Positions 8,189 to 25,674 of a DNA stretch of 32,605 bases are shown here, piece by piece. This DNA comes from a virus, in IMG/VR virus record IMGVR_UViG_3300045256_000662, positions 1-32,605 of that record; one strand, given 5' to 3'. A program made the translations under genes and the position numbers. The notes beneath the pieces are model-generated. The model saw only the letters and a list, made by a program, of their open reading frames with translations. It was not told where the DNA came from and did not search any database. Position 1 is the first letter of the stretch, and each line of letters starts with the position of its first letter.

Positions 8189-8601
8189 TCAAGACCCCTT
8201 CTTCGGGAGCCGCGCTTCGATCTCGCTGCGCCACATGAACAACTCGTCGAGGTCCATCGCGCTGATCTCGGCCGCCGACCAATGGAAGGTCATGGCGATA
8301 TCGGCCATGGCGGAGATCACCGCCGGGCCGATCTGCGCTATGGCTTGGCGAAAGGGGTTGCCCCCATCTGCTTTCCAAGCAGGTCGGCGATCGCCGCGTA
8401 ATCTTCACCGTCGATCGTGTCCACGGCCTCTGGCGGCATCTCGGCGAGGTCGCGGATCATTGCCAGGCTCATTTCGACGGGACCGAGCTTTTCCTTTTCC
8501 CAGCGGCGGAAGTCGCCGGCGCGGAGCCGGCGGAGACTTAGCGTGGTGTAGTGCGTGCCGTTATGTTCGAACGGATGCTTCAGCGTGTACTGCGTCGTCA
8601 T
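8189..8601 (-). CDS. E': E-E' tail assembly chaperone fusion made by -1 frameshift
   Basis: The region below the E stop is open in the frame one base back and encodes about 50 residues rich in GpE' features (ADIAMTFHWSAAEISAMDLDELFMWR), ending at 8189-8191. It has no well-placed start of its own. The slippery heptamer C CCT TTC (8356-8350 on the minus strand) fits X XXY YYZ exactly in the E frame, four codons before the E stop. Slipping back one base would give a 137-aa product: 84 residues of E and 53 of E'. P2 and most long-tailed phages make such a fusion, which with E coats the tape measure during assembly. Confidence 0.88.
8338..8601 (-). CDS. E: Tail assembly chaperone E (short product)
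   Basis: An 87-aa protein (MTTQYTLKHPFEHNGTHYTTL...) of the Mu gp41/P2 gpE tail assembly family: an N-terminal beta part with LSLRRLRAGD, then helical LAMIRDLAEMPPEAVDTID. The ATG at 8601 has GAGGAG upstream; a start at 8613 in the track frame would overlap the tube gene stop and is less likely. It lies between tube and tape measure, where the tail chaperone is always found. It ends at TAG 8338-8340 unless the ribosome shifts at 8350-8356. Confidence 0.9.
   Translation of the reverse strand: MTTQYTLKHPFEHNGTHYTTLSLRRLRAGDFRRWEKEKLGPVEMSLAMIRDLAEMPPEAVDTIDGEDYAAIADLLGKQMGATPFAKP
8350..8356 (-). promoter_or_regulatory. Slippery heptamer CCCTTTC for -1 ribosomal frameshifting
   Basis: On the minus strand the E codons are ACC CCT TTC GCC. 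The heptamer C CCT TTC allows both tRNAs to re-pair as CCC TTT one base back. The new frame continues to 8191. The shift direction and the position near the end of E match the conserved frameshift of phage tail genes. Confidence 0.8.
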
Positions 8602-9137: not shown

Positions 9138-10559
9138 TTAGGCGGCTTCGTCAATGAGTTCCGACAGATAGTCGGGCGTGACGATCGCGCGGAACGTGAT
9201 GCGCTCCGCCACCGGGCTCGGCGTGAAATCGAAGTCGAGGTAAAGGCGGCCGTCGGCGAGCGACTGCGGCGTGTTGAGATCCGGATTCGGCCAGCACTTC
9301 CCGCCGACGATCGCACCGAGGGCAATCAGGCGGCGCAGATAGTCGTTCACGCTCTCGACCACCGCCTCGATGAAGTTGCGCGTGATGTTGCGGTCGACGG
9401 CCCACAGATGCGCGCGCTGCACGCTGTCCATGATCATGTCTGCGGTGCGGCTGTGAGCGAGGAACGCGAAAGCAGGATCCGCGCTCGTCGTGCGGTTGCC
9501 CCACAGGCGGTATCCCTGCTCGCGGATGATGGTCGCGATCTCGTTCTCGTTGAGATAGTTCGCAGTCGTATTCGGGTCGCCCAAGCTGAAATCGATCGGG
9601 CGGCCCATGCCGGTCGTGCCGGTGAGAATGTGGTTCGAAGGCGATACCCAGAAACCTTCCTCGACATCGACCTGTGCGATGAGGCCAGCCACCGCCGCAC
9701 TGGCGGGCATCGCGATCTGCGCGCCCGTGACGCCGTCGATCGTCTTTTCCCAGGGATCGACGATAAAGATTCGGCGGCTGCCCCAGTCGTTGCGATAGGC
9801 GAGCGCATCGGCGTTGTTCGTGTTCGGGCCGTCGGCGACGATGTGAGCGCGCAGCGAGTTCGCCGGCGTCGAAAGAGCCGCCACCACGCCGTTCGCGTTG
9901 CCTCCGGCACGCTGATGCGTATGGCCGGTCGCGATCAGGATTCGCGGCGTCACATCGTGCAGCGCCTGCGCATTCAGCAGCGCATAGACGCCGGTGCGCG
10001 TCGTGCTGCTGCCGATGACCGCGGCTTCGAGAACCTTGCTCGGATCGACCCATGCATAGGCCACGTGCGCTGCGGCGTCGTTGGTCAGCGCGCCACCGGT
10101 AATGACGGTGATCAGGCCCTTGTCAGCGTCGAGCGTGTAATCGGTGCCGACGACGAGCGCAGCCCCGGCCCCGCCCGCCTCTTTCACCACCACTTCGCGT
10201 ACGAAGCGGTGCGGCAGCTGGATCTGCTTGTTCGTGATGGTGCGGTCAGCGCCAGCGACAGCGGTCTTGTGCGTGGCCGGGTCGCAGACGTTGACGACGA
10301 CGACGGTCGCGCCGCCGAAGTCGAAAATGCGCTTGAGCGCTTGCGGAATCGTGAAACCGCTCGAATAGCCGGCCAGGTCGGGCGTGCCGAAGAGTTCGGC
10401 CGCCTGCGTCGGGCTTCCCACGATCAGCACAGGCTCGTTCAAAGCGCCCTTCGGCGCGGTGCCGACAAGGCCGATGACGCTCGAACGCAGCGTGCGGATC
10501 GGTCGCGCGCCTTCCGTGAGCGTAATGACCTCAACGCCGTGCAGAAACTGGTCGCTCAT
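9138..10559 (-). CDS. FI: Contractile tail sheath protein, P2 FI family
   Basis: A 473-aa protein; the ATG is preceded by GCAGGAGTC. It begins FLHGVEVITLTEGARPIRTLRSSVIGLVGTAP, the typical FI opening, and its C-terminal half carries PSNHILTGTTG and the final domain with NITRNFIEAVVESVNDYLRRLIALGAI. P2 FI is 396 aa; the extra length lies mainly at about residues 100-170 (a beta-rich insert around VVKEAGGAGAALVVGTDYTLDADKG), probably a domain on the sheath surface. The sheath shows that this is a contractile-tail phage. Confidence 0.95.
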   Translation of the reverse strand: MSDQFLHGVEVITLTEGARPIRTLRSSVIGLVGTAPKGALNEPVLIVGSPTQAAELFGTPDLAGYSSGFTIPQALKRIFDFGGATVVVVNVCDPATHKTAVAGADRTITNKQIQLPHRFVREVVVKEAGGAGAALVVGTDYTLDADKGLITVITGGALTNDAAAHVAYAWVDPSKVLEAAVIGSSTTRTGVYALLNAQALHDVTPRILIATGHTHQRAGGNANGVVAALSTPANSLRAHIVADGPNTNNADALAYRNDWGSRRIFIVDPWEKTIDGVTGAQIAMPASAAVAGLIAQVDVEEGFWVSPSNHILTGTTGMGRPIDFSLGDPNTTANYLNENEIATIIREQGYRLWGNRTTSADPAFAFLAHSRTADMIMDSVQRAHLWAVDRNITRNFIEAVVESVNDYLRRLIALGAIVGGKCWPNPDLNTPQSLADGRLYLDFDFTPSPVAERITFRAIVTPDYLSELIDEAA

Positions 10560-10574
10560 GTCGGACTCCTGCGG

Positions 10575-10802
10575 TTACAGCCGCGCGTTCGGATACGTAA
10601 GCTCTATGTCCTGAGCCAGGTCGCCTTTCAAGCGCACAGTGTGCACCGGCGGTTTGTCGAAGCCGCCGGCTTCGTTCTTTTCGACGTCGTAGAAATGCAC
10701 TTCGCGCACGACGCCGCCGCCTGGCGCGGCAACGATCTCGGTGACGATGACGGTTTTCACGCCCTCGATTGCGATGCTCATGTTTGTGTAGGTGATGCTC
10801 AC
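10575..10802 (-). CDS. Hypothetical 75-aa protein between fiber genes and sheath
   Basis: The GTG at 10802 overlaps the stop of the preceding gene as GTGA and has GGAGA upstream. The product is beta-rich (MSITYTNMSIAIEGVKTVIVTEIVA, then VREVHFYDVEK and VHTVRLKGD). I do not recognise the family. Position after the fiber genes suggests a fiber accessory, assembly or baseplate-associated factor. An internal ATG at 10781 is an alternative start. Confidence 0.6.
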   Translation of the reverse strand: MSITYTNMSIAIEGVKTVIVTEIVAAPGGGVVREVHFYDVEKNEAGGFDKPPVHTVRLKGDLAQDIELTYPNARL

Positions 10803-11260
10803 AATGCGTTCTCCATCGGCCAAGCGGCGAGCACCGCCTGCACCTCTCCTGAAGTGATGCGGCCCTTGGAAATCAGCGACGCGAAAAAGCCGGTCGGACC
10901 CACCAGCTGCGACGAGGTGCGGCTGATCAGACGTTCCTCAGCGACTTTCAGAAACCCGATGAAATCCGTATCGGCGAGCGTTGCGTTGATCTCGGAAAGC
11001 GTCATGCCGCCCGGGCCCGGCGCGCCGAGCAGAGTCATCAAGCCGACGACGGTCAGCATCTTCGGCACCATGTCCTTAGGCGGCTCGCCGGGATCGTCGA
11101 TGATCTCCCAGCCGTTGACCCACACCGCCTTCTTGCCCAGCGGAATGGTGTCTGGCGGCGGTATGAGGACGGCGTTCGCAGGTCTCGGCTGCCCTTCGGA
11201 AAGCGTGGCCGTCTGCCCGCTGTAGAAGCCCCGCGCGGTGAGAAGATAGGCCGTGGTCAT
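10799..11260 (-). CDS. Hypothetical fiber-associated protein, 153 aa
   Basis: The protein has an N-terminal beta part (AYLLTARGFYSGQTATLSEGQPRP), a Pro-rich middle with AVWVNGWEIIDDPGEPP, and a helical C-terminal half (EINATLADTDFIGFLKVAEERL, GEVQAVLAAWP). The opening and the WVNGWEI stretch resemble segments of small proteins encoded next to tail fibers, including fiber assembly factors, but the match is not firm. It immediately follows the 441-aa fiber gene, so a chaperone or partner of that fiber is the likeliest role. Confidence 0.55.
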   Translation of the reverse strand: MTTAYLLTARGFYSGQTATLSEGQPRPANAVLIPPPDTIPLGKKAVWVNGWEIIDDPGEPPKDMVPKMLTVVGLMTLLGAPGPGGMTLSEINATLADTDFIGFLKVAEERLISRTSSQLVGPTGFFASLISKGRITSGEVQAVLAAWPMENAL

Positions 11261-11261
11261 G

Positions 11262-12587
11262 TCATTTCACCCGAACCATCTTGGTGTAGTTTACGGCCGC
11301 GCTGAGGTTCGGCAGCTGGAATTCCGTGGTCGGATCGTACGGCTTGGGCAGTGCGTAAACACCCGCAGTGCCGACGCCGCGTACAACGCCATCCCGACTG
11401 AAGGCTTCGCCAACTGTAATGCCCGTATACTGCGTGCCGACGCCGCCAGCGCCGAAGCGGATCGTGTTGCCGCCATAGAGAAAGCCGTCCAGCTCCGCGA
11501 ACTGGTTGGCGACCATCGACGTGCGCATGCCGAAGGGCGCGATCGACGCGAGGTTCGAGACCGGTGCGCGCTGCTCGCTGCCGCTTGCGACGCCGTACAG
11601 GAAGCCCTGCACGACAGGCCCGAACGAGCCGGTTTGGAATCCTACGATCGGCCAGTTCGTGGCACCGGTTCCGAGGATATGGGCGCGGACGGTGCCGCCG
11701 TTTGTGGCCCAAAGCACGCCGTCACGAGCAGTGATCTGCTGCGCGCTGATGCCCGTGGTGGTCCAGCTCAGCCCGCCATCATCGCTGTACCAGATCGTGG
11801 ATTGGGCGATGACGCAGAAGATCCGCGTGCCGTCGGCATGCAGATCGCCGATGCTCTGCGTCGGAACGCCGGTCGGATGCGAGCCGCCTGTCCACGAGCC
11901 TGACAGCCCGGTCGCGCTCGATCGGATCGAGTAGTCGCTCGTACCGTCCCACAGCGCGACGCAGAAGCGGTTCGACGTGACGACGCCGGCGACGAGGTAT
12001 CCGCCAAGTCCGCTGCCGACCGGGTTGCCGGTGCCGCTGATCGTGTAGAGAGACTGATTAACTCCGAAATTGAATCCGCTCGGCAGGATCAGGCCGCGGC
12101 AGTACCCGCCCCACAAGCATTGGGCCATCAGGCCGAACGAGCCGATCTGCACGACGGCGGACTCGACCCACGTGGAGAAGTTCGTCGTGCTGAGAAGCCG
12201 AACCGCGGCGTTGCCGCTGCCGTCGTTGTCGGTCACATAAAGGCAGCTGAAGCCGTTCGAATCCGCCCACATGCGCCGCCAATGACGATCGGGGGGGGCC
12301 GCCAGCGCGCTCACCGTCGCAGGACGCGCGCGCAGCAACGTCGGCGTCAGCACGAGCGGCACATGGCCCATGCTCGAAAAGAGTTCGGGATAGGCCGACT
12401 GCAGGACGATGCTGCCGTTCGCGCGCTTCCAATACTCGCTCTCATACCCAGCGCCGTACACATCGCAGGGATAGCCGACGGGCTGGCTCGCTTCACGCGC
12501 CTGCAGCGCGCGGGCCGAAGCTTCGGTCGCTTTAAGGCGCGCAGAAAGAGACTGCGCGATGGTGAGCGCGAATGCTTGAACGATCAT
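11262..12587 (-). CDS. Tail fiber-like protein with BNR/Asp-box beta-propeller features
   Basis: A 441-aa protein. An N-terminal helix (about residues 1-33, SLSARLKATEASARALQA) leads into a segment containing GYPCDVYGAGYESEYW and then a Trp/Gly-rich repeated pattern. The sequence WYSDDGGLSW is a clear Asp-box (SxDxGxxW) of BNR or sialidase-like propellers, and several weaker S-x-W/T turns occur around it. The final residues FQLPNLSAAVNYTKMVRVK are like the C-terminal ends of tail fibers. A glycan-binding or glycosidase function in host recognition is inferred. No catalytic sialidase Arg triad is claimed. Confidence 0.65.
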   Translation of the reverse strand: MIVQAFALTIAQSLSARLKATEASARALQAREASQPVGYPCDVYGAGYESEYWKRANGSIVLQSAYPELFSSMGHVPLVLTPTLLRARPATVSALAAPPDRHWRRMWADSNGFSCLYVTDNDGSGNAAVRLLSTTNFSTWVESAVVQIGSFGLMAQCLWGGYCRGLILPSGFNFGVNQSLYTISGTGNPVGSGLGGYLVAGVVTSNRFCVALWDGTSDYSIRSSATGLSGSWTGGSHPTGVPTQSIGDLHADGTRIFCVIAQSTIWYSDDGGLSWTTTGISAQQITARDGVLWATNGGTVRAHILGTGATNWPIVGFQTGSFGPVVQGFLYGVASGSEQRAPVSNLASIAPFGMRTSMVANQFAELDGFLYGGNTIRFGAGGVGTQYTGITVGEAFSRDGVVRGVGTAGVYALPKPYDPTTEFQLPNLSAAVNYTKMVRVK

Positions 12588-13180
12588 CCGAGCGTGCCCG
12601 TGTGTGTCATGTCTTTGACGCGGCGGCCGAACGTCGGATCGACCTCGTACTCGATCGCGGTAAGGCCGCTCTTGCCGCGCCAGCCCGAAAGGATCTCCAC
12701 GACCTCGCCATCGACCCAGGTAAGGGCGATCGTGAACGGGCTCGCGCCGAGCATGCCGCTCAGACCGGTCAACTCCCCTGTTGACGGATCGTAGCCGAAG
12801 GAAAGCGCGCTCGGGTTGCGAGTCGCCCAGAGGACATCCTCGTTCGCAGCCGCGAAAAATGCGGCGAGCGCGGCTTCCTGCGCCGCCAGCGAAGCCGCAG
12901 CATCCGCTCCGAATTCATCGACGGCATCTTGCGCGCCTTCAAGAACCGCTTCGGCATCGGCGACACGCTCCTGGACCTGGTTGAGGATCGGCCCTACGGT
13001 TTCGTCGATCCGCGCCAAACCGAAGCGCTGCAGCTCTTCGATCGTCGACTCGACGGTACCGCGCTGCTCTTCGAGCTTGTGGAATCGCAGATCGACATCT
13101 TCGAACCGAACATTGAATTCGGCCTCGGACAGCGGCGTCTTGCCGTCCTGAAATCGATAGAGCTGGTCGAAACGGCGCAC
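12584..13180 (-). CDS. Coiled-coil fiber-connecting protein, 198 aa
   Basis: The GTG at 13180 is chosen because GAGGAG, overlapping the stop of the preceding small gene, lies just upstream; the frame is open further but Arg/Ser-rich there. The protein opens RRFDQLYRFQDGKTPLSEAEFN, has a long Ala/Glu-rich coiled coil (about residues 25-110), and ends with a beta part (LTWVDGEVVEILSGWRGKSGLTAIEYEVDP) that looks like a pre-neck or attachment domain. It could trimerise and connect a distal fiber to the baseplate. The stop overlaps the fiber gene start. Confidence 0.6.
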   Translation of the reverse strand: MRRFDQLYRFQDGKTPLSEAEFNVRFEDVDLRFHKLEEQRGTVESTIEELQRFGLARIDETVGPILNQVQERVADAEAVLEGAQDAVDEFGADAAASLAAQEAALAAFFAAANEDVLWATRNPSALSFGYDPSTGELTGLSGMLGASPFTIALTWVDGEVVEILSGWRGKSGLTAIEYEVDPTFGRRVKDMTHTGTLG

Positions 13181-13184
13181 CGGC

Positions 13185-13364
13185 CTACTCCTCGATCGGC
13201 TCGGCCGTCGCGACGATCTCCGCCACCTTGGAAAGCTCCGCACCGAGCACTTCGTACTCGCGGCCGGGAAACACGGGGCGGCCGACGATCGTCGTCCGCT
13301 CCGAGAACTTCGCCCGGTAGAGCTGATCGGCGGCGAAGCCCGCCTTTGCATTGGCCTTGGGCAT
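13185..13364 (-). CDS. Small 59-aa hypothetical protein in the fiber cluster
   Basis: A short frame with ATG at 13364 and AGGGAGAGG upstream, ending at a TAG that sits within the ribosome site of the next gene. The product is MPKANAKAGFAADQLYRAKF followed by VFPGREYEVLGAELSKVAEIV and an acidic end. The tight spacing on both sides (11 and 4 bases) and good ribosome site support it being real. Many P2-like fiber clusters carry such small proteins of unknown role. Confidence 0.65.
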   Translation of the reverse strand: MPKANAKAGFAADQLYRAKFSERTTIVGRPVFPGREYEVLGAELSKVAEIVATAEPIEE

Positions 13365-13375
13365 GATCCTCTCCC

Positions 13376-15562
13376 TTAGAGCGCGACCCAGACGCTTTCC
13401 GCGACCGTGAACGGTTTCACCGCGGCGCTGCTGCGGTTGCCGGAAAGCTTGATCCGGAACTGCGTCAGAGCCGGGCTCGGGTTGAACGTGAAGGTCTTTG
13501 TGTAACTGCCGTCGCCGTTATCGACCGTCTCGACCAGTGCGGCAGTGACTTCACTGTTGTCGGGCTTCACGAGCCGCGCGGTCAGCGTATGGTTCGCCGG
13601 CTCGAAGCCCGGCAAGCGCACGATGACTCGGATATCGGACGAAGCCGAACCGAGCGTGTTCATCGTGCTGAAGTGAATGAACGCCAGATTCGGGCGGCTG
13701 GCGGTAATCTTGTTCGCGCCGAGCAAAAGCCCCGGCGCAAGATCCTTCGTGCCCACCATGACGACGCGCAGCGGAACGATGTCCGGCAGGGTCGAAAGGC
13801 GGCCCAGCGCCGTCGAGATCGGATACCACAGGCCTGCGACCTGGATCTCGTACACGAGGTCCGTGCCGTTCGGCACGACCTGCTGCGTTTTGATGGCGAG
13901 ATCGCCGATGCCGCCTGCCAGAGTCACCGCGCCGAGCATGATCTCGGTGCGCGCCTGTCGGAATTCCGCGCCGTAAATCGCGAATTCCAGATCCTTCGTC
14001 ACGTCTCCGACGAAATACTCGCCGTCGTTGCCGTAGAAGAAGGTGCCCTGCGTGAAATTGTTGCCCGAAACGACCGCAGCCTTATGGCCGCCGGTCGTGA
14101 TCAGCGCGAGCGCATAACGCTTGCCGGATTCGATCAGCACCGGCGGCATGCTCACGCGCGTTTCCTCGCGGTTGCCTTTGAGGTCGGCCACCGGGACGGT
14201 TATGCGGCTCAGCACGCGGCTCAGCACCGGCTTGCCGTGCTCGGTTTCGCACAGAAGCACATGCAGATCGCCGGCGTTCGATTTCTCGGTCAGGTAGATG
14301 CCCGTACCGGTGAACCACTTGTCTGCAGGCGAGACGAACGTCTGCGCCACGATCACGCCGTTGTAGTTGGTGGTGACCGTGTCCTGGTAATAGTGGGTGA
14401 CCGGATACTGCGTGTAATACCCATAGCTCTGGTAAGACGCCGTGTACCACCAGTAATCATAGCCATAATACTGGTAGTAATAGCTGTAGTACCAGGGGTT
14501 CCACCAATAGTTATAGGTCCAGCCGTAATTGTAGACGTATTCGTAAGTGACGTAACTTTTGATCGAATGCGTCTGGACCTGATAGGTCGACAGCGACACG
14601 TCGCCCGAAAAGCCTTCGGTCTTCAGCATGAGCCGCGAATCGTACTTCGGCATCAGCCAGTCGCCGGCGCGCGTGACGTTCGGGTCGATCGGATTCTGCA
14701 GAGCGAGAGCGGCTTGCACGCTCGCCGCATGCGGGAACAGGACGCCGTTGTTAACGATCGCCGTCGCGCCGGTCAGTACCGTATCGGTCTGGGCGGTGTT
14801 GCCGAAATAGTCTGCGCGATAGCTCTCGTAACCGGCCGGGAGGTTGAGCGCCTCGCGCAAGCGCGCGACGTCCGCGCTCAGGCGGATAAAGCCGGGAAGA
14901 TCGGCCTTGTTCGCGGTCTTTTCCGCCAGCGCGGCAATGTTCGACGTGAGAGAAGCGATGGTCGGCTCACTGCGGCCGCGCCAGAGTTCAAGATCAGTGA
15001 TCTTCTGCCGGTTCGCCGCTGCGCTCGGCAGCACGTTGCCGACCAGCTGCTCGATGCTCTCGATGCCGGTCGTTCCGAGCGTCACGTGCGCAATCGCCAG
15101 ATAGGTAGCGGCAACGGCCGGCGGAACCGGTGTTGCGGATTCTGCTCCGGCAAGAGCCGAAACGTTCAATGCCCGCAGCCGCTGCATGGCGACGGCGTTC
15201 GGCTCGGTCGTGTTGGTATCGACGTCGATCAGGAAGTCGCGCGGCTCGACGTCGGTATCGACCACTGAGCCGAAGGCAACGATCGTGACGATCTTCTTCG
15301 CCGCCAGCGGCAGGAAGGTGGTCAGGCTGATATCGTTCGCGCTCTCGAGGACGTACACCTTGCCTGCGTCGTAGAGCCGGCCGATCGCGCAGCGCACGAG
15401 GGTCGAGCTTTGCTGCGTGACCCCAAGGCCGGTGAAATGGCGACCGCTGCTGAGCCCGTCGGTAACGACGTGGTCGAGCGAATCCGCAATGAACTTCTGC
15501 ATGTCGCCGAAGTCGTTCGGGCCGATCTCTTGGCGATCACGGAAGATGACCTGTTTTTCCAT
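13376..15562 (-). CDS. Large fiber/baseplate protein (DUF4815-like) with Tyr/Trp-rich segment
   Basis: A 728-aa protein; the ATG at 15562 has AGGAG upstream and shares a base with the I stop. The N-terminal third (DRQEIGPNDFGDMQKFIADSLDHVV, VYVLESANDISLTT) resembles the DUF4815-type phage structural proteins found after gpI. Residues about 200-260 are helical. Residues about 337-394 are exceptional: 24 Tyr and 6 Trp in 58. The rest is beta-rich, with a jellyroll-like part and a final Ig-like domain (TARLVKPDNSEVTAAL, then NGDGSYTKTFTF). A structural fiber or baseplate role is inferred from position and fold. Confidence 0.7.
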   Translation of the reverse strand: MEKQVIFRDRQEIGPNDFGDMQKFIADSLDHVVTDGLSSGRHFTGLGVTQQSSTLVRCAIGRLYDAGKVYVLESANDISLTTFLPLAAKKIVTIVAFGSVVDTDVEPRDFLIDVDTNTTEPNAVAMQRLRALNVSALAGAESATPVPPAVAATYLAIAHVTLGTTGIESIEQLVGNVLPSAAANRQKITDLELWRGRSEPTIASLTSNIAALAEKTANKADLPGFIRLSADVARLREALNLPAGYESYRADYFGNTAQTDTVLTGATAIVNNGVLFPHAASVQAALALQNPIDPNVTRAGDWLMPKYDSRLMLKTEGFSGDVSLSTYQVQTHSIKSYVTYEYVYNYGWTYNYWWNPWYYSYYYQYYGYDYWWYTASYQSYGYYTQYPVTHYYQDTVTTNYNGVIVAQTFVSPADKWFTGTGIYLTEKSNAGDLHVLLCETEHGKPVLSRVLSRITVPVADLKGNREETRVSMPPVLIESGKRYALALITTGGHKAAVVSGNNFTQGTFFYGNDGEYFVGDVTKDLEFAIYGAEFRQARTEIMLGAVTLAGGIGDLAIKTQQVVPNGTDLVYEIQVAGLWYPISTALGRLSTLPDIVPLRVVMVGTKDLAPGLLLGANKITASRPNLAFIHFSTMNTLGSASSDIRVIVRLPGFEPANHTLTARLVKPDNSEVTAALVETVDNGDGSYTKTFTFNPSPALTQFRIKLSGNRSSAAVKPFTVAESVWVAL

Positions 15563-16788
15563 CAAACGCTCCTACGCCATGCGCCCGCGACAAGGTCGCC
15601 GGCTTTGATTCCGTATCCGGCGGTCACCGGCTTGGTGACCGCAAAATTGAGAAGAACGCGATCGCGGGCCGCCTTCGCGAGACGCACCGCCTCGACCACC
15701 CGATCGACGCGCGATGGGTCCGGCTTCATCAGATGCCCGCCGACATATCGACCGAAGCGCCTGCGCGAGGTGCGGCCACGGACCTGGACGAGCAACTCCG
15801 CGGTGTACGCCGGCATGTTCAGCCGCATGACGCCGAGATGGGTCGTGCGGCCCCGGGCCTCCGGGCGGCGCTCGGGGTCGTGCAGGTAAGTCCGGCTGTA
15901 TAGCCGGGTCGCAGCCGTGCTCGGGTTGAGAAAGCACTTGCGATCGCCGAAGAAGCCGACGCCTTGCATGACGCCGCGCCGCGTTCCCTGCTCGGCAACC
16001 TTCTCGACCCGCACGTCGATCGGCTGCAGGCTGGGGATCACATCGCGACGCGCCAGCACTTGCTCGCTGACCTGATAGGTCGTGCTCGTGCGGATGGTGT
16101 ACAGACGATCGGCGGCGGTCGACGGCAGGCCGAAGCGCGCAAAGCGCCTCACGTAAGTGCCGCCTTTGGCGCTGCCCTTGCGGCGGACTTCTACGAACTC
16201 GACTGCGTCGGTGCTGCGGATATCTTCGCGGCGATCGATCGTCGTGAGCGGGGTTTCAGTTCCTTGGTCCCACAGGAAAGCCCGAGCGCCGTAGCGGATC
16301 TCGGCATCGCTGCGGCGCGGGCAGGACGAGGGCGTGCCGACATAGGCATGTCCCATGATAGCCCCGACGCGGCTGCCGCGGTCCCGGAAACGGTAAATGC
16401 GAAGCTGCGGGTGCCGCGCATAGAACGCCTGCATCTCGGCTTCAGAGCGGTTCGGCGCGAGGTGGGTTTTGCCGGGAGGCACGACGGCGCGAATGACCTC
16501 GCCGCCCGCCATATCGACCGCGAGCTTGATGCCGGCCAGGGTGCCTTTCTGCCGATGCAGCTCGAAGCTGCGGGCGACGACGTTGCGTTTCTTCTGCTCG
16601 TCCCAGTCGCGGTCCCAGATATCGACCGAATGCTCGTAGGCCGTGAAGGGCAGTGCGCCAGCGGGCGCGCGCTGAGGGTCGGTCACGGCATCGACGTCGC
16701 TTCGCAGCGCGAAGCCCCGCGCCATGGCGACGCTCAGCGCGCGCTGCAGCGGTGTGGCATTGGACGGGAGCAGCGGCTCAGTCGTCAC
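15562..16788 (-). CDS. I: Tail protein I, P2 gpI family, strongly extended
   Basis: Baseplate wedge protein that links the J/W wedge to the fibers. The N-terminal about 110 residues (LLPSNATPLQRALSVAMA, LPFTAYEHSVDIWDRDWDEQKKRNVV, FELHRQKGTLAGIKLAVDMAGG) are typical gpI. At 408 aa it is more than twice the 176 aa of P2 gpI. The C-terminal part (about 130-408) is basic and beta-rich and includes a MGHAYVGTPSS stretch; it may form a separate baseplate domain, as in some alphaproteobacterial prophages. The start overlaps the J stop by 11 bases. Confidence 0.9.
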   Translation of the reverse strand: MTTEPLLPSNATPLQRALSVAMARGFALRSDVDAVTDPQRAPAGALPFTAYEHSVDIWDRDWDEQKKRNVVARSFELHRQKGTLAGIKLAVDMAGGEVIRAVVPPGKTHLAPNRSEAEMQAFYARHPQLRIYRFRDRGSRVGAIMGHAYVGTPSSCPRRSDAEIRYGARAFLWDQGTETPLTTIDRREDIRSTDAVEFVEVRRKGSAKGGTYVRRFARFGLPSTAADRLYTIRTSTTYQVSEQVLARRDVIPSLQPIDVRVEKVAEQGTRRGVMQGVGFFGDRKCFLNPSTAATRLYSRTYLHDPERRPEARGRTTHLGVMRLNMPAYTAELLVQVRGRTSRRRFGRYVGGHLMKPDPSRVDRVVEAVRLAKAARDRVLLNFAVTKPVTAGYGIKAGDLVAGAWRRSV

Positions 16789-18674: not shown

Positions 18675-19255
18675 GGCTCGCTCAGGATCTCGGAGATAGG
18701 CCGATACTTGTCGACATGAGGCGGCCCGATCTCCGGCGACCAGCTGCCGAGAATCTCGTCGGCCTGGAATGCGTCGACCGGAAGCGGCGTTGCGGTTCGA
18801 TATTCGACGCTGAAAGTCAGCGTCGTGCGGCCGAAAATGTATTCGACGCCGTTGTCATCGGCCGCGCCGATATCGTGATCGACTTGCGTCAGGCGGCTTT
18901 TCACGATGACGCCCGAGGGATGATCTTCCATCCGCTCGAGAGCGCTCTCGATCTCGTCGGCAAACTCGTCGAGAGCATCCTCGAGCCCGTCTTCCGTTGC
19001 CAGCACGCCGGAAACAGTGACGGTGAGCGTCTTCACTTTGTCGCCATACCCATCGGCGTCTTGGCTCGTGGCGGCGAGCGCCTGGCTCAGCGCGGCAATC
19101 ATGATCGCAGGCATTTCAGAAGGGCCGGAGACTGGATCAATGAGGTTGAGGTGGACGCGCGTTGCCGCGCGCGTTATCGGTGCCGGCGGATCGCCGACGA
19201 CGAGCAGGAGCCGGTCGCGGAACGCTTGGCGGATGAGCGTACGCGGCGACGTCAT
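18671..19255 (-). CDS. Tail terminator/completion protein candidate
   Basis: A 194-aa protein between the FII-like connector and V. The N-terminus RTLIRQAFRDRLL, the LNLIDPVSGPSEMPAIMIAAL stretch, a strand KTLTVTVSGVLA and a helix ALDEFADEIESALERM give the alpha/beta layout of lambda gpU-type tail terminators, which cap the tail and join it to the head. The later SVEYRTATPLP is a closing strand. Assignment is by layout and gene position, not by a unique motif. Overlaps V by 4 bases. Confidence 0.7.
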   Translation of the reverse strand: MTSPRTLIRQAFRDRLLLVVGDPPAPITRAATRVHLNLIDPVSGPSEMPAIMIAALSQALAATSQDADGYGDKVKTLTVTVSGVLATEDGLEDALDEFADEIESALERMEDHPSGVIVKSRLTQVDHDIGAADDNGVEYIFGRTTLTFSVEYRTATPLPVDAFQADEILGSWSPEIGPPHVDKYRPISEILSEP

Positions 19256-19572
19256 GCCAGAAGCTTCCTGAGCACGAGAAGCGCGCCGGCCGGGTCCTGA
19301 CGATGAACCTGCGCGACTTTGTAGGCGACACCTTCGACGGTGACCCGATCGTCGCGCTCGGGGGCAGCGACTGCGCTGTACGGTACCAGCAGCACCGTTT
19401 CGACGCTCGTAACGCCCTGCCCGTCGTCACCGAGCGCCTGGTATTCGTAGCTGGAATCGAAGGCTGCCCGAATCGTCACAGGGGCAGCGTTGCCACGTCG
19501 GTAAAGCACATCGCCGCCGAATTCCTCGACGATATCCTCGAACACTTCGCGCTGAATCTGCGGCCAGCTCAT
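19252..19572 (-). CDS. Head-tail connector, lambda FII-like
   Basis: A 106-aa beta-rich protein (lambda gpFII is 117 aa). Features are VLYRRGNAAPVTIRAAFD near the start, a middle strand VETVLLVPYSAV, then RDDRVTVEGVAYKVAQVHRQDPAGALLVLRKL, the usual closing motif of the FII/attachment family. It joins the filled head to the tail. Overlaps both neighbours by 4 bases. In lambda FII follows E and FI; here 5 kb of spike-type genes intervene. Confidence 0.82.
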   Translation of the reverse strand: MSWPQIQREVFEDIVEEFGGDVLYRRGNAAPVTIRAAFDSSYEYQALGDDGQGVTSVETVLLVPYSAVAAPERDDRVTVEGVAYKVAQVHRQDPAGALLVLRKLLA

Positions 19573-20324
19573 GCTGCAAGCGGGTGTCTACGGGTGACGA
19601 TGAGATCGTCGCCCTGAGTTAGCTGGATCCCCAGATTGCTGAAGTTCAGATTGGCGTGCTGGCGACGACGTATTGGCGGATGGTACCCGACAGGATTGGG
19701 CAAATTGCCGGGCGAAATCATGCGCGTGCCTGAGCGCCGCTCTGTAATGTTCTGCCCGACACTTTCGTCAAACGGAAGCTGGAACATAAGGCGACCCGGA
19801 GCAATTTGCTCCGGAAGAACATTGCCCCGAAACAGTAGCGCGACGTCCGCGTCAGTGAGGCCGTACTGCATCCAGCCGAAGCACTCCGCGAGGAAGCCGT
19901 TCCAACTGTTCACGTTTGAAGAATGGCCGACCTGAATCAGATTTCCGATGCCGGCGATTGCTCCAATGTTCGTGGACGTATCGTCGACTCGCGAGCCATT
20001 GACCCAGAAGCTTCGGCTCGTAGCCGATCTAATTACGCCGGCGAAATGCACCCACTGGCCAGCTGCGAGCGCCGTCGTCGAGGTTAGCGTCGCCGTCGTC
20101 GAGTTTCCGTTGTGCCTAAAGCGCCATGCAGCGGCTGTCGAATCGTAGTCGATCGTCATCGAACCGGTGTTGCCGGTGACGACAAGCGCAGAAGCGGTGC
20201 CGCTAGGTAGCGTTTCCGCCCAGGCCCAACATTGCATCGAGAACGGATAGGCGCTGCTCGTCGGAATAGCGCCAGACGGAGTGGAGCATCGTTCAGTGTT
20301 CGACCTGACGAAGCGGTACGCCAT
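19569..20324 (-). CDS. LamG/concanavalin-like carbohydrate-binding protein
   Basis: A 251-aa protein. Residues about 25-190 have the LamG jellyroll pattern: FSMQCWAWAETLP, ALVVTGNTG, WRFRHNG, AAGQWVHFAGVI, SFWVNGSRVDD and a strand with WNGFLAECFGWMQYGLTDADVALLF. Such domains bind sugars. The C-terminal segment (about 190-251) is basic and may be the attachment part. TAATG overlap with the preceding gene. Placed in the block between capsid and connector genes, so it may be a virion surface lectin. Confidence 0.75.
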   Translation of the reverse strand: MAYRFVRSNTERCSTPSGAIPTSSAYPFSMQCWAWAETLPSGTASALVVTGNTGSMTIDYDSTAAAWRFRHNGNSTTATLTSTTALAAGQWVHFAGVIRSATSRSFWVNGSRVDDTSTNIGAIAGIGNLIQVGHSSNVNSWNGFLAECFGWMQYGLTDADVALLFRGNVLPEQIAPGRLMFQLPFDESVGQNITERRSGTRMISPGNLPNPVGYHPPIRRRQHANLNFSNLGIQLTQGDDLIVTRRHPLAA

Positions 20325-20680
20325 TAGACGCTCGTCAATTCCTGGAAGAAGGCCTCGACCGTTACAGCTTGGCCGGTGTTTCCGGTGAAGACGGAACGGA
20401 TGTACATCGTGCCCGGCGGGATATCGATCGAGTGAGAAACCACTTCGCTGTTCGCCACTCCGCCAGCCCGACCGTTGTAGCGGTACCAGTTCGTGTTGTC
20501 GTGGCTGACCTCGATAAACCCGGAGCAGGCGACGCTTGGTCCAGTCGCACCGTTCGTAAACTTCAGCGTCGCGACGCCGCCAAGCGAAGTGCGAATGTCG
20601 ACCGAAGAAGAAGTGGTGGTCGCGCCAGCGGCGTTCGAGGTCGAACTCTGCAGCGTGCGGGCGGTTTTCGTAATCGGCAT
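20324..20680 (-). CDS. Small beta-sandwich structural protein, 118 aa
   Basis: The Ser/Thr-rich N-terminus (MPITKTARTLQSSTSNAAG) is followed by strands VATLKFTNG, SGFIEVSHDNTNWYRYN, SHSIDIPPGTMYIRSVF and VTVEAFFQEL. This is a compact jellyroll-like protein, similar in pattern to small decoration or fiber-head proteins encoded near capsid genes. The family is not firmly recognised. A 60-base gap precedes it, the longest in this block. Confidence 0.65.
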   Translation of the reverse strand: MPITKTARTLQSSTSNAAGATTTSSSVDIRTSLGGVATLKFTNGATGPSVACSGFIEVSHDNTNWYRYNGRAGGVANSEVVSHSIDIPPGTMYIRSVFTGNTGQAVTVEAFFQELTSV

Positions 20681-20740
20681 GGTGGTCTCCTATGGGCCGG
20701 CAGCACTGCGCCGGAGAAAGTTGATCCGCTGTCTACGACC

Positions 20741-23446
20741 TCAGATAGCCTCAGCCGTATTCCACCGGGTGTTGCTGCCGTAGAAGCTGCCGATCGCGGG
20801 GTAATCTGGCAGAGCCGTAAACGCGTCGTGAAACTCCTGCAGGGTGGTGCTCATGGTATTGTCGTTGACGGGAGAAGTCGCCTTGACAACGCGCATTAAG
20901 CCCAGCGCATGCGTGGAATAGTCATCCGGTCCGGCACTCGTCGTCGTCGCGTAAGGATCGTTGCGGTATGCCGCCCGAGCGCCGCTGAGCGAGGCGAGAG
21001 GAACGATCTCTGCGCCGCCAGGCGTCGCCGATAGCGTAACCGTGAAATTGGGATGCGTTCCCGAGACTGATTTGACGTAATAGAGCACGTTGTCGGCGAA
21101 CGGCGCAGGCGGAGACTCGAGTCGAAATACACCGTTCACCACTGGATCGACGGGGCTGAAAGAGTCTGCAACGGTGGTGATTTGCGCGCTTCCGGAAGTG
21201 TAAACGACGCTCGCGTGCCGGCGGCTCATCCAATGCGTAAGTGGCGTGAACATTGCACCGCCGCTGACATGGCGGATCGTGAAAAAGTAAGGCGCGAACG
21301 CGAACGTCTTTTGCGTCGACCAGCCGGTGACAGCCCAGTCACGCACGTACTGCCGCAGCGCCTCACTCTTGCTTTCCCAGCCGAGCCCTGAACCGCGAAG
21401 CATCCAAGCAGCGTGAATGAGCTGCATGGCCATAAAGCACCATTGCCATGGCGTCATGTCAGTAGACGTCCAATTGTTGCTCAGAGGCGCTTTGATCGCG
21501 ACTTCCGTCGGCGTCACAGACTGCGTGATGTATGCATGCAGATATTCGATGTTCTGCTTGAGGACTTCACGCCAGTACTGTCGCTCGTCGCCTGTCGATA
21601 TCGAGTATGCGGCGAGCACATAGCGCAGCGACCAGGATCGACCACGATATTGAACTTCCTTCACAACGAGCGGCTGATAGGTGGTGCTGTCGATCGTGTG
21701 ACGGCGACCAGTGTTGCCTGTCGCGCTGTAGTTTGGCTGATTGACCATGCAATGCGTCGCGAAAAGGTTGTTTAGATCGCGCCACCACACATCGCCGGTC
21801 AGAAGATAGAGCGGCCGATAGATGTCCGGGCAATGCCGGCTTTCCGGCATGAAGTTGGTGCCCGGACCGTTAAAATTGAAAGAGAAGCTGTTGTTGTTGC
21901 CGTTGAGGCCCCGCCAATTCGCCACGCCGCTGAACGCGCTCAGCGTGTTGTCGATGTAATGCTGAACGTTCGGCTTTGCGGTTCCAGCGCCAAAGAAGTC
22001 AGTCGTAGAGACGGTGACGTAGCGCAGCGTCGTGTCATCGATGTAATGGAACGCCCAATGCGAGAAGCACAGAGCGTTGATCCGAGCTTGCCGCAGACGC
22101 GCAAGGTTCGGCGATACCCAGTACGCCAGCGGCCATTCGCAGGTGTACCCGATCTCGGCTCGACCGCCGACGTTGCTTTGGTCAGAAGAGAGGTTGCCGC
22201 CATAGCTCGGTCGGTAGTCTTCAACCGTCGTCGACATCGTCGAAACAGCAGCCGTCGAATACGGCGGCATCATGCGCGTCTGATTCCAGTGTTGCTGATT
22301 ATGCCGCGGTATCAGCGTCGGGCGCGTGCCGCCGATCCAGACTGCAGAGCCGTCAGCACTCGCGATCGCAAACGAGCCGCGATAAACGACCCATCGACCC
22401 GAATAGTTGCTGTTGCCCGCATCATGCCCCGCGATCGCGGAGGCCCCGTTGAGCAGAGACACATTGCATGAAGTGATGGCCTCGCCGCCGGCGGTGGCCG
22501 TGAGGCCGTTGACGACGCGCGGTAGAACTTCGCGGGCGGTAACGGTGCCGCCAGCATTCTTCCAGCATCGGATGTGGGTATAGAAAACGAAAAAGGTGCT
22601 GACCAGCCGCGTCACCATCCATTCGTCGCAGATCGGACCTTGGCGGACGCGGGCCCAGGTGCCGCCGTTGATTGCGCACTCCACATCGCCGTAGGCTCCG
22701 CTGAACGACCGCGTAACGCTCGCAAGCTTCACACGGAAATCTGTCGCTGCCTGCTCGTTGGAAGCCTGGTAGCTGCTGGTGTTCGTCCAGGGGTTGGTCT
22801 CTTTCCCAACCCACAGCGTCATCGTTCCGCCAGCGGCAATGCTGCTCGGCGTGCGGATCGAAATGGCGCAGAACGACAGCGAGCCGTCCTCATGGAAAGT
22901 TCGCTGATCGAATTGGGCGTCGACGGCAGTTCCGTTTACGTCAGAAACTCGCACAACGAGCCGATCGCCGCTCGGTACTTCGCCGGGTGCGAATGGCTGC
23001 CCCCAGGAGTAATAGCTCGCCGCCGGCACCGCATCACTGCCAGAAGTATTCTGAAGGGTGTGCGTGAGGCCTCCCGGATAGATTTCGCTCGGCGGCAGCG
23101 AGGAAACCAAGGTTAGGCTGACGTTGAAAGCCGCCGTGCCTGCTGAGTTTGTGACGTTGACGGAAAGATTTCGGACAGCCGCTATGGCGCTCGTAGTCCA
23201 CGACAGGAGTCCGCTGGACGAAACGGAGATGCCTGCCGGCCAAGACCCATTGGCCGAAAACGTCACCGAAGAAGGCACTGCGCCTTGCGCCTGCAGCTGT
23301 ACGGAGCCCGCAATGCCGGCGATCGCGCTTTCTTCCGTCGGCGAGATGCTCGTCGCTACGCTGGGCGTAGGTGGCGGAACGATGATCTTCACACCGATCT
23401 TGCCGCCGGTGCGCCGAACCTTACCTCCGAAAAGCCTGATCCCCAC
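20741..23446 (-). CDS. Large receptor-binding/possible polysaccharide-degrading protein, 901 aa
   Basis: Probably a virion surface protein acting on host glycan. Residues about 1-25 are basic (GGKVRRTGGKIGVKIIV). Residues about 30-115 form an Ig/cadherin-like domain with the SVTFSANGSWPAGISVSSSGLLSW pattern typical of putative-Ig repeats. Residues about 120-400 are a beta-sandwich, including GDRLVVRVSDVNGTAV. Residues about 420-720 are rich in aromatic helices (DIYRPLYLLTGDVWW, WSLRYVLAAYSISTGDERQYWREV, MTPWQWCFMAMQLIHAAW) and look like an alpha/alpha-toroid, as in rhamnogalacturonan-exolyase-like and heparinase-like enzymes. The C-terminal about 150 residues are beta-rich. Enzyme activity is inference from fold pattern; catalytic residues are not identified. 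Confidence 0.6.
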   Translation of the reverse strand: MGIRLFGGKVRRTGGKIGVKIIVPPPTPSVATSISPTEESAIAGIAGSVQLQAQGAVPSSVTFSANGSWPAGISVSSSGLLSWTTSAIAAVRNLSVNVTNSAGTAAFNVSLTLVSSLPPSEIYPGGLTHTLQNTSGSDAVPAASYYSWGQPFAPGEVPSGDRLVVRVSDVNGTAVDAQFDQRTFHEDGSLSFCAISIRTPSSIAAGGTMTLWVGKETNPWTNTSSYQASNEQAATDFRVKLASVTRSFSGAYGDVECAINGGTWARVRQGPICDEWMVTRLVSTFFVFYTHIRCWKNAGGTVTAREVLPRVVNGLTATAGGEAITSCNVSLLNGASAIAGHDAGNSNYSGRWVVYRGSFAIASADGSAVWIGGTRPTLIPRHNQQHWNQTRMMPPYSTAAVSTMSTTVEDYRPSYGGNLSSDQSNVGGRAEIGYTCEWPLAYWVSPNLARLRQARINALCFSHWAFHYIDDTTLRYVTVSTTDFFGAGTAKPNVQHYIDNTLSAFSGVANWRGLNGNNNSFSFNFNGPGTNFMPESRHCPDIYRPLYLLTGDVWWRDLNNLFATHCMVNQPNYSATGNTGRRHTIDSTTYQPLVVKEVQYRGRSWSLRYVLAAYSISTGDERQYWREVLKQNIEYLHAYITQSVTPTEVAIKAPLSNNWTSTDMTPWQWCFMAMQLIHAAWMLRGSGLGWESKSEALRQYVRDWAVTGWSTQKTFAFAPYFFTIRHVSGGAMFTPLTHWMSRRHASVVYTSGSAQITTVADSFSPVDPVVNGVFRLESPPAPFADNVLYYVKSVSGTHPNFTVTLSATPGGAEIVPLASLSGARAAYRNDPYATTTSAGPDDYSTHALGLMRVVKATSPVNDNTMSTTLQEFHDAFTALPDYPAIGSFYGSNTRWNTAEAI

Positions 23447-23449
23447 TGA

Positions 23450-24178
23450 TCACCACTCCAAGAGGATCGTCCCCGAAATCTCGGCAGTCAGAGCGCCGGT
23501 CGAAATCTCAATCCGGTCGCCGAGCGCAAGAGTTACGGGTGTCGAATCGATGATGTCGGTGGGCGTTGTCGTCACCGCCGCAGCGTTGATCTCGGTCGAA
23601 GTCGTGTCGTTGCCTGCGCGCCGGGCCGCCGTGATCGTGGTTGCATCGCCCTTGGTTTCGACCTGACCGAGGCCCTTGAACTTCTTTCCCACGTCGGCCG
23701 CCCCGGCGACAAAAACCGTGCGCGAGGTCAGCACAGTCGTCGTGGAGAACGTGGCGGCAACGAATACGGTGCCGGTCATCCGCTGCTGAAGGTAAGCGGG
23801 CGTCCGGTTGATGCCGTTGCCGCTGCTGTCGAACATGACGATTTCGTCGGCCGAACCGTTGAGCACGTCGTTGTCTGAAATGTCGGCGGAAGAGTGCGTA
23901 TGCCCGACGTTCGACTTCAGGCTGAGCGCGGTAGCAACGGAATCGAAGTTGCTGTCGACCGAAGTTTGATCGGCCTTCGCGGCGAGCGCGGAGACGAGGC
24001 CTGTGATGCGCGCTTGCGCCAGCGTCAGATTCGACTCCAGCCAGATCTTGACGACGGAGAGCACGCCACGCCGCTTCGCGCCGCTCAAGGCCGCAGGGAA
24101 GGTGACGTCGGTGCCGTCGCCAAGCTCGCCGCTGTTGATGGCCGGCACATCGCCAGCCGACCACGCTTTCTCAGCCAT
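23450..24178 (-). CDS. Fiber-like protein with HTH-motif knitting segment, 242 aa
   Basis: The N-terminus (MAEKAWSAGDVPAINSGELGDG) resembles a virion-attachment end. Residues about 45-85 form a helical stalk (LTLAQARITGLVSALAAKADQTSVDS). GHTHSSADISDNDVLNG (about residues 92-108) carries the HxH pattern common in phage fiber shafts, where it can bind metal in the trimer. The C-terminal half is a beta-rich tip (TGTVFVAATFSTTTVLTSRTVFV). TGATG overlap with the preceding small gene. A head or tail fiber is the likely role. Confidence 0.68.
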   Translation of the reverse strand: MAEKAWSAGDVPAINSGELGDGTDVTFPAALSGAKRRGVLSVVKIWLESNLTLAQARITGLVSALAAKADQTSVDSNFDSVATALSLKSNVGHTHSSADISDNDVLNGSADEIVMFDSSGNGINRTPAYLQQRMTGTVFVAATFSTTTVLTSRTVFVAGAADVGKKFKGLGQVETKGDATTITAARRAGNDTTSTEINAAAVTTTPTDIIDSTPVTLALGDRIEISTGALTAEISGTILLEW

Positions 24179-24333
24179 CAGCTACCCCATCCAACCACAT
24201 CGCCATCCGGCCAGAGCAGGATATCGCCGTCCGGCCAGGCGACGGCGTCGGTATAGATCGCGCCGCCAAGCGGCGGCGGTGTTGCGCCGCCGGCGCGACC
24301 GGTAACGAACAGCGAGAAGAAGAAGCCGATCAT
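24178..24333 (-). CDS. 51-aa small protein with repeated WPDGD motif
   Basis: The ATG at 24333 overlaps the stop of the spike-base-like gene as TGATG. A hydrophobic N-terminus (MIGFFFSLFVTG) is followed by a Gly/Pro segment and AWPDGDILLWPDGDVVGW, where WPDGD occurs twice, with a 24-base DNA period (24199-24213 and 24223-24237). Short beta-hairpin repeats of this sort occur in several phage structural proteins. The family is not recognised. Tight coupling to both neighbours supports a real gene. Confidence 0.6.
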   Translation of the reverse strand: MIGFFFSLFVTGRAGGATPPPLGGAIYTDAVAWPDGDILLWPDGDVVGWGS

Positions 24334-24584
24334 CACCAGATCCCGTGCAGGTTGTTTGCGGTGACCGTCGTGCCGGTCACATAGACGCGCCGCGCAATCG
24401 CGGGCACGGGCCCGATCACGACGTTGATCGTGACCGGCGTGTCGCTGTTCGCGGGCAGGAACCGGATCGCGCCCGCGGCGCTCGCCCACATGCTGCGCAC
24501 GGGGCCATCGGGAATGTCGGCGCTATCGTTGGGCGTGATCACCGCCCATTTCGAGCCGGGCGAAGACAGATCATCGGGAAACAT
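24333..24584 (-). CDS. Spike-base-like protein (RCAP_Rcc01079 type)
   Basis: An 83-aa protein with ATG at 24584 and AGGAGG upstream. It contains WAVITPNDSADIPDGPVRSMW, then GAIRFLPANSDTPVTINV and ARRVYVTGTTVTANNLHGIW, a pattern I recognise from the small beta-barrel spike base proteins found after the capsid gene in Rhodobacter gene transfer agent and related phages. Those sit on the capsid and anchor head spikes or fibers. The match is by eye. It opens the block of lectin and fiber genes, which suits an anchor for head-borne spikes. Confidence 0.7.
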   Translation of the reverse strand: MFPDDLSSPGSKWAVITPNDSADIPDGPVRSMWASAAGAIRFLPANSDTPVTINVVIGPVPAIARRVYVTGTTVTANNLHGIW

Positions 24585-24601
24585 CAACCCTCCTTACGCG
24601 T

Positions 24602-24657: not shown

Positions 24658-25674
24658 TTAGGTCTTGGTGCCCTTGATCAGCACGCGCGGACGAAGGCAA
24701 ACGCTCAGAGGGTTGCTCTGCAGCATCAGCGAAACCGAGCGATTCCACTTGGTGTCGGGAGCGATCTTCGCGTAGCGCGGCAGGCCGATCGTGTTCACCG
24801 TTTCAAGGAAGTCGCCCGGCGCGTAGTAGGTGCGGAACAAGCCAGGCACGCCGACCGGGAAGAAATGCGCATCGTCGTCGCCGACGAATTGCGTGTTCCC
24901 GACCTTGCCGCGATACTCTTTGAACCGGATGCCGTAGATCGTCACGTCGCGCCGCGCCAGCGGCTCGCGCATGATTCCGTTCGTCGCTTCGTAATTGAAG
25001 GCTGCAAGGAATTCCTTGTGGGTCACCAGCTTGTCGAAGAAGTTCGAGCCGACCAGCGCCATGATGCCGGGCAGCATCATGTTGCCGTCGAGTTCGTCCT
25101 CGATCTTGCGGTAGACCTCGTGGCACTTCAGGCGGAGCGCGCCGAGGGCCGGGTTCGCGTTGTCGAGATCGAAGTCGATCGTATCGTAAGCGGTGACGCC
25201 GAACTCGTCGTAGAGATTGCTCACGACGCTCGAGCCGTCCGCATCGAGGATCAGGCCGCGAAGCGCACCAAGGCGGTGATATTCGAGCGTCGCGTCTAGG
25301 TTGCGGGACATTTCCGCGAAGCGGCTGTCGACCACGCTCTGCACGGAGGCGAGCTGGTTTTCGCTGCCGAACTGGCGCACGCCCTGCACTTCATCCGCCG
25401 TAACGGTGTCTTCCTGCGGAAGCTGCGGAATCGGCATCTTGCGGATCGTGCGCTTGTTGGGCGTACCCTGCATCGGAGGAGCGCCGCGCGGCCGGGTCGG
25501 AACCAGGCGAAGCTTGCCGCTCTCCTCTTCGATCGAGATATCCGTCGTCGGCACGCCGGTCTCGTTGAACAGACCGAGGCTCGAAACGAAGCCCGGAACG
25601 AACGGAATTCGGTTCACGCGATCGGTCAGGCTGACGAGGCTGAACGCCTGCGTGTTGAAAACGTCCATAAACAT
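24658..25674 (-). CDS. Major capsid protein, lambda gpE family
   Basis: A 338-aa protein (lambda gpE 341 aa) with the HK97 fold. MDVFNTQAFSLVSLTDRVNRIPFVPGF at the start, TDISIEEESGKLRLVPTRPRG, then the E-loop/spine region RFAEMSRNLDATLEYHRLGALRGLILDADGS, and the closing part with KWNRSVSLMLQSNPLSVCLRP are typical of the family. It follows the decoration gene, as in lambda. Confidence 0.95.
   Translation of the reverse strand: MFMDVFNTQAFSLVSLTDRVNRIPFVPGFVSSLGLFNETGVPTTDISIEEESGKLRLVPTRPRGAPPMQGTPNKRTIRKMPIPQLPQEDTVTADEVQGVRQFGSENQLASVQSVVDSRFAEMSRNLDATLEYHRLGALRGLILDADGSSVVSNLYDEFGVTAYDTIDFDLDNANPALGALRLKCHEVYRKIEDELDGNMMLPGIMALVGSNFFDKLVTHKEFLAAFNYEATNGIMREPLARRDVTIYGIRFKEYRGKVGNTQFVGDDDAHFFPVGVPGLFRTYYAPGDFLETVNTIGLPRYAKIAPDTKWNRSVSLMLQSNPLSVCLRPRVLIKGTKT

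Follow-up and report, generated by a model that had tools for sequence, protein, structure and literature searches.

The virus represented by IMG/VR record IMGVR_UViG_3300045256_000662 (positions 1 to 32,605; the whole of this 32,605-nucleotide stretch is hereafter the window) carries a six-gene block between its capsid and connector genes, the first protein of which is, by sequence, profile and predicted fold, a homolog of the head-spike base of the gene transfer agent RcGTA. Given this homology, the plug-like start of the second protein and the presence of the first three genes in the same slot of another phage, we consider it very likely that the base, a 51-aa miniprotein and a 242-aa fiber form spikes on the capsid vertices. 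That the block encodes capsid head spikes of the RcGTA type we regard as probable, with the products of its other three genes as possible further head proteins.

Genomic context and organization of the block

The structural genes lie on the minus strand in the order terminase small and large subunits, gpW-like protein, portal, S49 protease, D, E, the six-gene block, FII, tail terminator, gpV, J, I, fiber genes, sheath, tube, tape measure and hub genes (Table 1). The P2-type contractile tail is represented by the sheath, tube, baseplate J and V, tail protein I and tape measure. Hence, a lambda-type head (D, E, FII) is combined with a P2-type baseplate and sheath in one phage, as in Wolbachia phage WO and AcaML1; in the latter two, however, FII directly follows E. 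The separate fiber cluster at the P2 position, noted in the initial annotation, is indeed present: its ORF at 13376-15565 matches phrog_17470 at 7e-147, and that at 11262-12587 gives a sub-threshold match to Collar (PF07484, 0.0013). ARAGORN additionally calls a 97-nt tRNA-Gly (tcc) on the plus strand at about 8338-8434 of the window (found in locus L007 at 5701-5797); it sits between the tube and tape-measure genes, an odd place for a tRNA, and may be spurious. The 55-kb contig IMGVR_UViG_3300045107_000845 shows no difference from the window over its first 29,968 bases (window positions 2638-32605); it is therefore a further record of this virus and adds no independent case.

Table 1. Features of the window discussed in the text
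Feature	Position	Strand	Basis
Major capsid protein, lambda gpE family; upstream flank	24658..25674	-	PF03864 2.4e-96
Shine-Dalgarno AAGGAGG of base gene	24589..24595	-	sequence
Head-spike base, 83 aa, Rcc01079 family	24333..24584	-	phmmer, phrog_12296, leave-window-out profile, AF2 + Foldseek
Miniprotein, 51 aa; predicted plug IGFFFSLFV, linker, two WPDGD repeats	24178..24333	-	position, plug, TGATG coupling, like loci
Fiber, 242 aa, with GHTH motif; putative spike shaft/receptor-binding part	23450..24178	-	PF12789 1.3e-4, sub-threshold; position as in base-mini-fiber loci
Putative polysaccharide-acting enzyme, 901 aa, weak PcRGLX-like N-terminal domain	20741..23446	-	PF19501 0.005; fragment 2.4e-4
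Predicted beta-sandwich protein, 118 aa	20324..20680	-	PF00754 0.003, sub-threshold
LamG (concanavalin A-like) protein, 251 aa, probable carbohydrate binder	19569..20324	-	PF13385 9.6e-13
Head-tail connector, gpFII family; downstream flank	19252..19572	-	PF05354 7.4e-16
Separate tail-fiber cluster, between tail protein I and sheath	10575..15565	-	profile matches to two ORFs
Contractile tail sheath	9138..10559	-	phrog_23 1.2e-120

All six ORFs of the block (19569-24584) are present where the initial annotation placed them. Their overlaps and their PF03864 and PF05354 flanks bear out its description of six coupled genes filling the place between E and FII, a place occupied in lambda, as it correctly stated, by FI alone. 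The base and miniprotein genes, and likewise the miniprotein and fiber genes, overlap in a TGATG; 3 bp separate the fiber gene from that of the 901-aa protein, the 118-aa and LamG genes overlap by 1 bp, and LamG and FII by 4 bp. The sole real gap within the block, of 60 bp, lies between the 901-aa and 118-aa genes. A promoter scan of the block predicted no promoter, internal ones included, and terminator calls did not exceed those in shuffled sequences.

We surveyed 160 capsid-E loci from genomes and IMG/VR, in 104 of which both E and FII were recognized. The two genes are at most 103 bp apart in 92 of the 104 loci, and the gap of 5107 bp in the window is the second largest. The other long gaps hold different contents: in L044 and L135 an LLEDG-type miniprotein with a fiber, in L025 ORFs resembling sugar enzymes, and in L098, a lambda-E relative, a 111-aa protein followed by a homolog of the RcapMu head fiber (2e-43). 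Profile comparison ruled out the 111-aa protein as a diverged base. It belongs to a family of about 111-117 aa found between E and FII in L098 (11083-11418), L051 and L166; this family, though no homolog of the base, may be another spike base. In L109 (11025-11903), a 292-aa ORF directly after E appears to join an FILGGG-type enzyme N-terminus to an FII-like C-terminus, and in L025, L105, L114, L128, L155 and L165 ORFs resembling glycosyltransferases or sugar enzymes lie either in the stretch from E to the connector or immediately past the connector. Apart from that of the window, no base was found in the 160 loci.

Homology of the first protein to the RcGTA spike base

The base gene starts with the ATG at 24584, behind a strong Shine-Dalgarno sequence. 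Searched alone with phmmer, its product matches the PDB chain of the RcGTA base Rcc01079 at 0.0025 and the capsid spike base of Cobetia phage Carin-1 (PDB 8CJZ chain h) at 0.044; against PHROG it matches phrog_12296 at 2.7e-10. With a family profile of 13 rows, the window's among them, Rcc01079 scores 8.2e-25 and the Carin-1 base 8.9e-8, and no other match is convincing; a 56-row profile built without the window recovers the window's base at 3.6e-14. The AlphaFold (AF2) model from a 57-row alignment (pLDDT 89.8) displays a six-stranded jelly-roll like that of 6tb9: Foldseek against the PDB aligns it with the RcGTA base 6tb9 (TM 0.83, rmsd 1.5 Å, probability 1.00) and the Carin-1 base 8cjz (TM 0.71, probability 1.00), and the matches that follow are far weaker. 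Thus, the likeness to the RcGTA spike anchor recorded in the initial annotation is upheld both by the sequence comparisons and by the structure prediction that it had proposed as a check.

Glu12 of Rcc01079, a cation ligand on the side facing the MCP, is replaced by Ser8 at the aligned position of the window protein; since Ser is also the family consensus, Glu12 is better seen as a detail of RcGTA than as a defining trait. In the tree of the family long branches meet, giving no firm place to the window's base.

The base family in other phages

A search seeded with the window's base recovered L290 (IMGVR_UViG_3300044993_000587), ruling out that a base in the E-FII slot is unique to the window. 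It shares with the window the lambda-type order D-E-base-miniprotein-fiber-FII, the fiber being of 293 aa; hence, L290 is a second, independent instance of both the slot and the three-gene set. It differs in that its slot holds these three genes only, and no sheath was found in its 35.9 kb, so that it is apparently non-contractile. Of the block, base, miniprotein and fiber thus recur at the same place, whereas the 901-aa, 118-aa and LamG genes are absent from that slot.

Elsewhere, the HK97-type contigs L206, L208, L216, L257 and L280 have the base after protease/MCP and ahead of the connector; it directly follows the MCP in L192 and L234, and stands away from the capsid genes in L194, L211 and L295. 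As it also occurs near the terminase or after baseplate genes, position by itself is no proof of a capsid location. The viral contigs L252, L266, L220, L277, L278 and L241 each encode two ORFs of the family, possibly reflecting two spike types per virion. At least six contractile contigs other than the window carry a base: the Mu-type prophage L194; G398/L285 with a P2-type tail; G442, G470 and G496 with long sheaths; and G471/L299, where the sheath follows 2.8 kb after a base whose family match is below the cut-off, with a local profile match present. In two samples of base-carrying viral records sheaths turned up in 2 records out of 50 and in 3 out of 47, counts that are lower bounds because many records are fragments.

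Counting against the spike reading are the change from Glu12 to Ser8, the PHROG name of the base family ('tail fiber protein'), and the base not always lying beside capsid genes. One could accordingly picture the block as an adhesin cassette of the tail or neck that happens to sit in the head operon, with its products on the connector, collar or tail and not on the vertices. The PHROG label, the tail-repeat-like fiber and the adjoining connector gene would agree with this, as would the base-fiber pairs placed after the tail genes in RcapMu and after the baseplate genes in the Mu-type contractile L194. However, both structurally solved members of the family are capsid spike bases, several unrelated phages have the base gene immediately after that of the MCP, and this phage already has a complete fiber cluster at the P2 position. 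We therefore hold a tail or neck location to be quite improbable and retain the vertex spike as the preferred reading.

The miniprotein carries a candidate plug

In RcGTA, five base proteins on each capsid pentamer hold one fiber by its residues 2-10, IALGLGLGL (PMC7296036). The miniprotein gene of the window starts on the stop codon of the base gene, and its product begins MIGFFFSLFVTG: residues I2, F4, F6, L8 and V10 are in register with the RcGTA plug, giving five of five alternating hydrophobic residues. This pattern is over-represented behind bases. Of the 68 first starts after a base, 28 have four or five of the five alternating positions filled by large hydrophobics and 7 have all five; among 1746 control starts the corresponding shares are 4.8% and 0.23%.

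Many base loci have the plug at the head of one long fiber, whereas more than a dozen contigs encode it as part of a separate protein of 37-52 aa, with the fiber gene next; these miniproteins end in C-terminal repeats of W-x-D or LLxEDG types (e.g. VWNDAGVWDDTDVWND, ATWDDTTTWNDNLAWSD and LLLENGNDLELEDG). The window, in which plug and receptor-binding fiber are likewise not one polypeptide, falls into this class by its repeat, AVAWPDGDILLWPDGDVVGW. The WPDGD-repeat miniprotein of the initial annotation thus acquires a probable role: by analogy with RcGTA and with the miniproteins after bases elsewhere, it would act as an adaptor between base pentamer and fiber. The docking of the fiber by its C-terminal repeats would be the weakest step of this proposal.

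A short protein with a hydrophobic start might alternatively be something unrelated to spikes, the start being a membrane- or signal-like segment, and no profile ties the window's miniprotein to the others. We find this unlikely in view of the five alternating hydrophobics in the RcGTA register, the TGATG coupling to the base gene, and the miniproteins of 37-52 aa with similar plugs at like positions in other contigs. An adaptor remains the favored interpretation.

The fiber and the three downstream genes

The 242-aa protein matches the PF12789 tail repeat below the cut-off. The 'HTH motif' ascribed to it exists as the peptide GHTH in a tail-repeat-like stretch, and is no helix-turn-helix. No window protein matched the RcapMu head-fiber profile (Rcc01080/RcapMu58), so homology of the fiber body to that family was not found.

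The LamG protein is clearly recognized (Laminin_G_3, 49 bits, cut-off 27.6), in accord with the lectin of the initial annotation. Its other two assignments gained matches that are all sub-threshold: F5/8 type C for the beta-sandwich protein, and for the N-terminal fragment of the putative glycan-acting protein PcRGLX_1st (21.3 bits, cut-off 22.1), the rest of that protein being without a match. An AlphaFold model of the 901-aa protein from its single sequence was unusable (pLDDT 30.6). From its sequence it is a possible polysaccharide-acting enzyme. We found no relatives of it among phages; close relatives of it and of the 242-aa fiber in IMG/VR came from the same virus only, and none of the 242-aa, 901-aa, 118-aa and LamG proteins has a detectable relative in the fetched loci. 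Accordingly, these four are assigned to the spike by operon position. The coupling of the last three to the spike genes and FII suggests that they are virion proteins.

The head spike might nonetheless comprise the base, miniprotein and fiber alone, the 901-aa, 118-aa and LamG proteins being separate adhesin or enzyme cargo in the same slot, such as a released depolymerase or a tail-borne protein. The L290 slot, with just the three spike genes, is in line with this division, as are the 60-bp gap and the low GC of the 901-aa gene stretch: at 0.59 (about 20137-22637) it is the lowest of the contig, compared to 0.61-0.69 elsewhere, and fits a recent acquisition. On the other hand, only 3 bp part the fiber from the 901-aa gene, LamG overlaps FII, no internal promoter is predicted, and in other loci the base is followed by fibers of 700-1032 aa encoded in one gene. 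We judge this separation to be a serious contender, with just under an even chance.

A model for the spike and its relation to known systems

On the preferred reading of a vertex spike, five copies of the base would form a jelly-roll pentamer, as seen in RcGTA, at every free vertex of the capsid, of which there may be up to 11. The miniprotein peptide IGFFFSLFV would thread into this pentamer as a plug, like IALGLGLGL of the RcGTA fiber, as register and gene order suggest, and its W-P-D-G-D tail would hold the 242-aa fiber. Standing out from the vertex, the fiber would make an initial, reversible contact with the surface of the cell, probably by binding glycans there, after which the contractile tail with its own fibers would inject; the products of the remaining three genes of the operon would probably add glycan binding or cleavage. 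The vertex location, plug insertion, fiber docking and adsorption role are what we infer.

The RcGTA spike, with base Rcc01079 (GhsA) and fiber Rcc01080 (GhsB), resembles that of the window in base family, predicted fold and plug at residues 2-10; in both, the base gene directly precedes the plug-bearing gene and there are separate tail adhesins. RcGTA, however, is non-contractile with an HK97-type MCP, has its spike genes outside the structural cluster and unites plug and fiber in one protein, whereas the window combines a separate plug protein with a lambda-E capsid, a contractile tail and enzyme- and lectin-like genes that follow. Carin-1, which shares base family and fold, is a T7-like podophage (as cited in PMC11476376), unlike the contractile phage of the window. 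The Rhodobacter phages RcapMu and RcWaterboi share a pair of base and head-fiber homolog, the rcc01080 match of which was reported earlier (PMC8601537). Their pair ends the tail genes, their tail module is sheath-less with a lambda-J-like protein, and their fiber is encoded by a single gene.

RcGTA-type vertex spikes are known from a few other particles, and the kind of spike is itself no novelty. In the contractile Agrobacterium phage 7-7-1, fibers from the capsid pentamers bind flagella as the first contact (PMC12796354). No Rcc01079-family protein was detected in its genome by profile at E up to 10, ruling it out as a carrier of this type of base. In view of these capsid fibers and the other contractile base carriers, the suggestion that a contractile tail together with a second, capsid-borne adsorption apparatus is undescribed fails for the general combination. 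Base, miniprotein and fiber are best read as a vertex spike. The literature searched yielded no account of a contractile phage bearing an Rcc01079-type spike, which does not by itself prove that there is none.

Tentatively, and at less than even odds, we propose a general split-anchor arrangement, in which adaptors of 37-52 aa plug the base pentamer with their first ten residues and dock interchangeable fibers or enzymes at the vertices of many phages through C-terminal repeats (WPDGD, VWNDxxVWDD, LLxEDG); the head of the present phage would thereby bear a lectin and a glycan-acting enzyme. The findings as a whole would take RcGTA-type head spikes beyond one gene transfer agent and a handful of phages: they would constitute a modular means of capsid adsorption, widespread among HK97-type, lambda-type and contractile phages. 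This also offers a likely role for the many very small phage proteins that have a plug and short repeats but lack annotation, and points to capsid-borne receptor-binding candidates among proteins commonly labeled as tail fibers.
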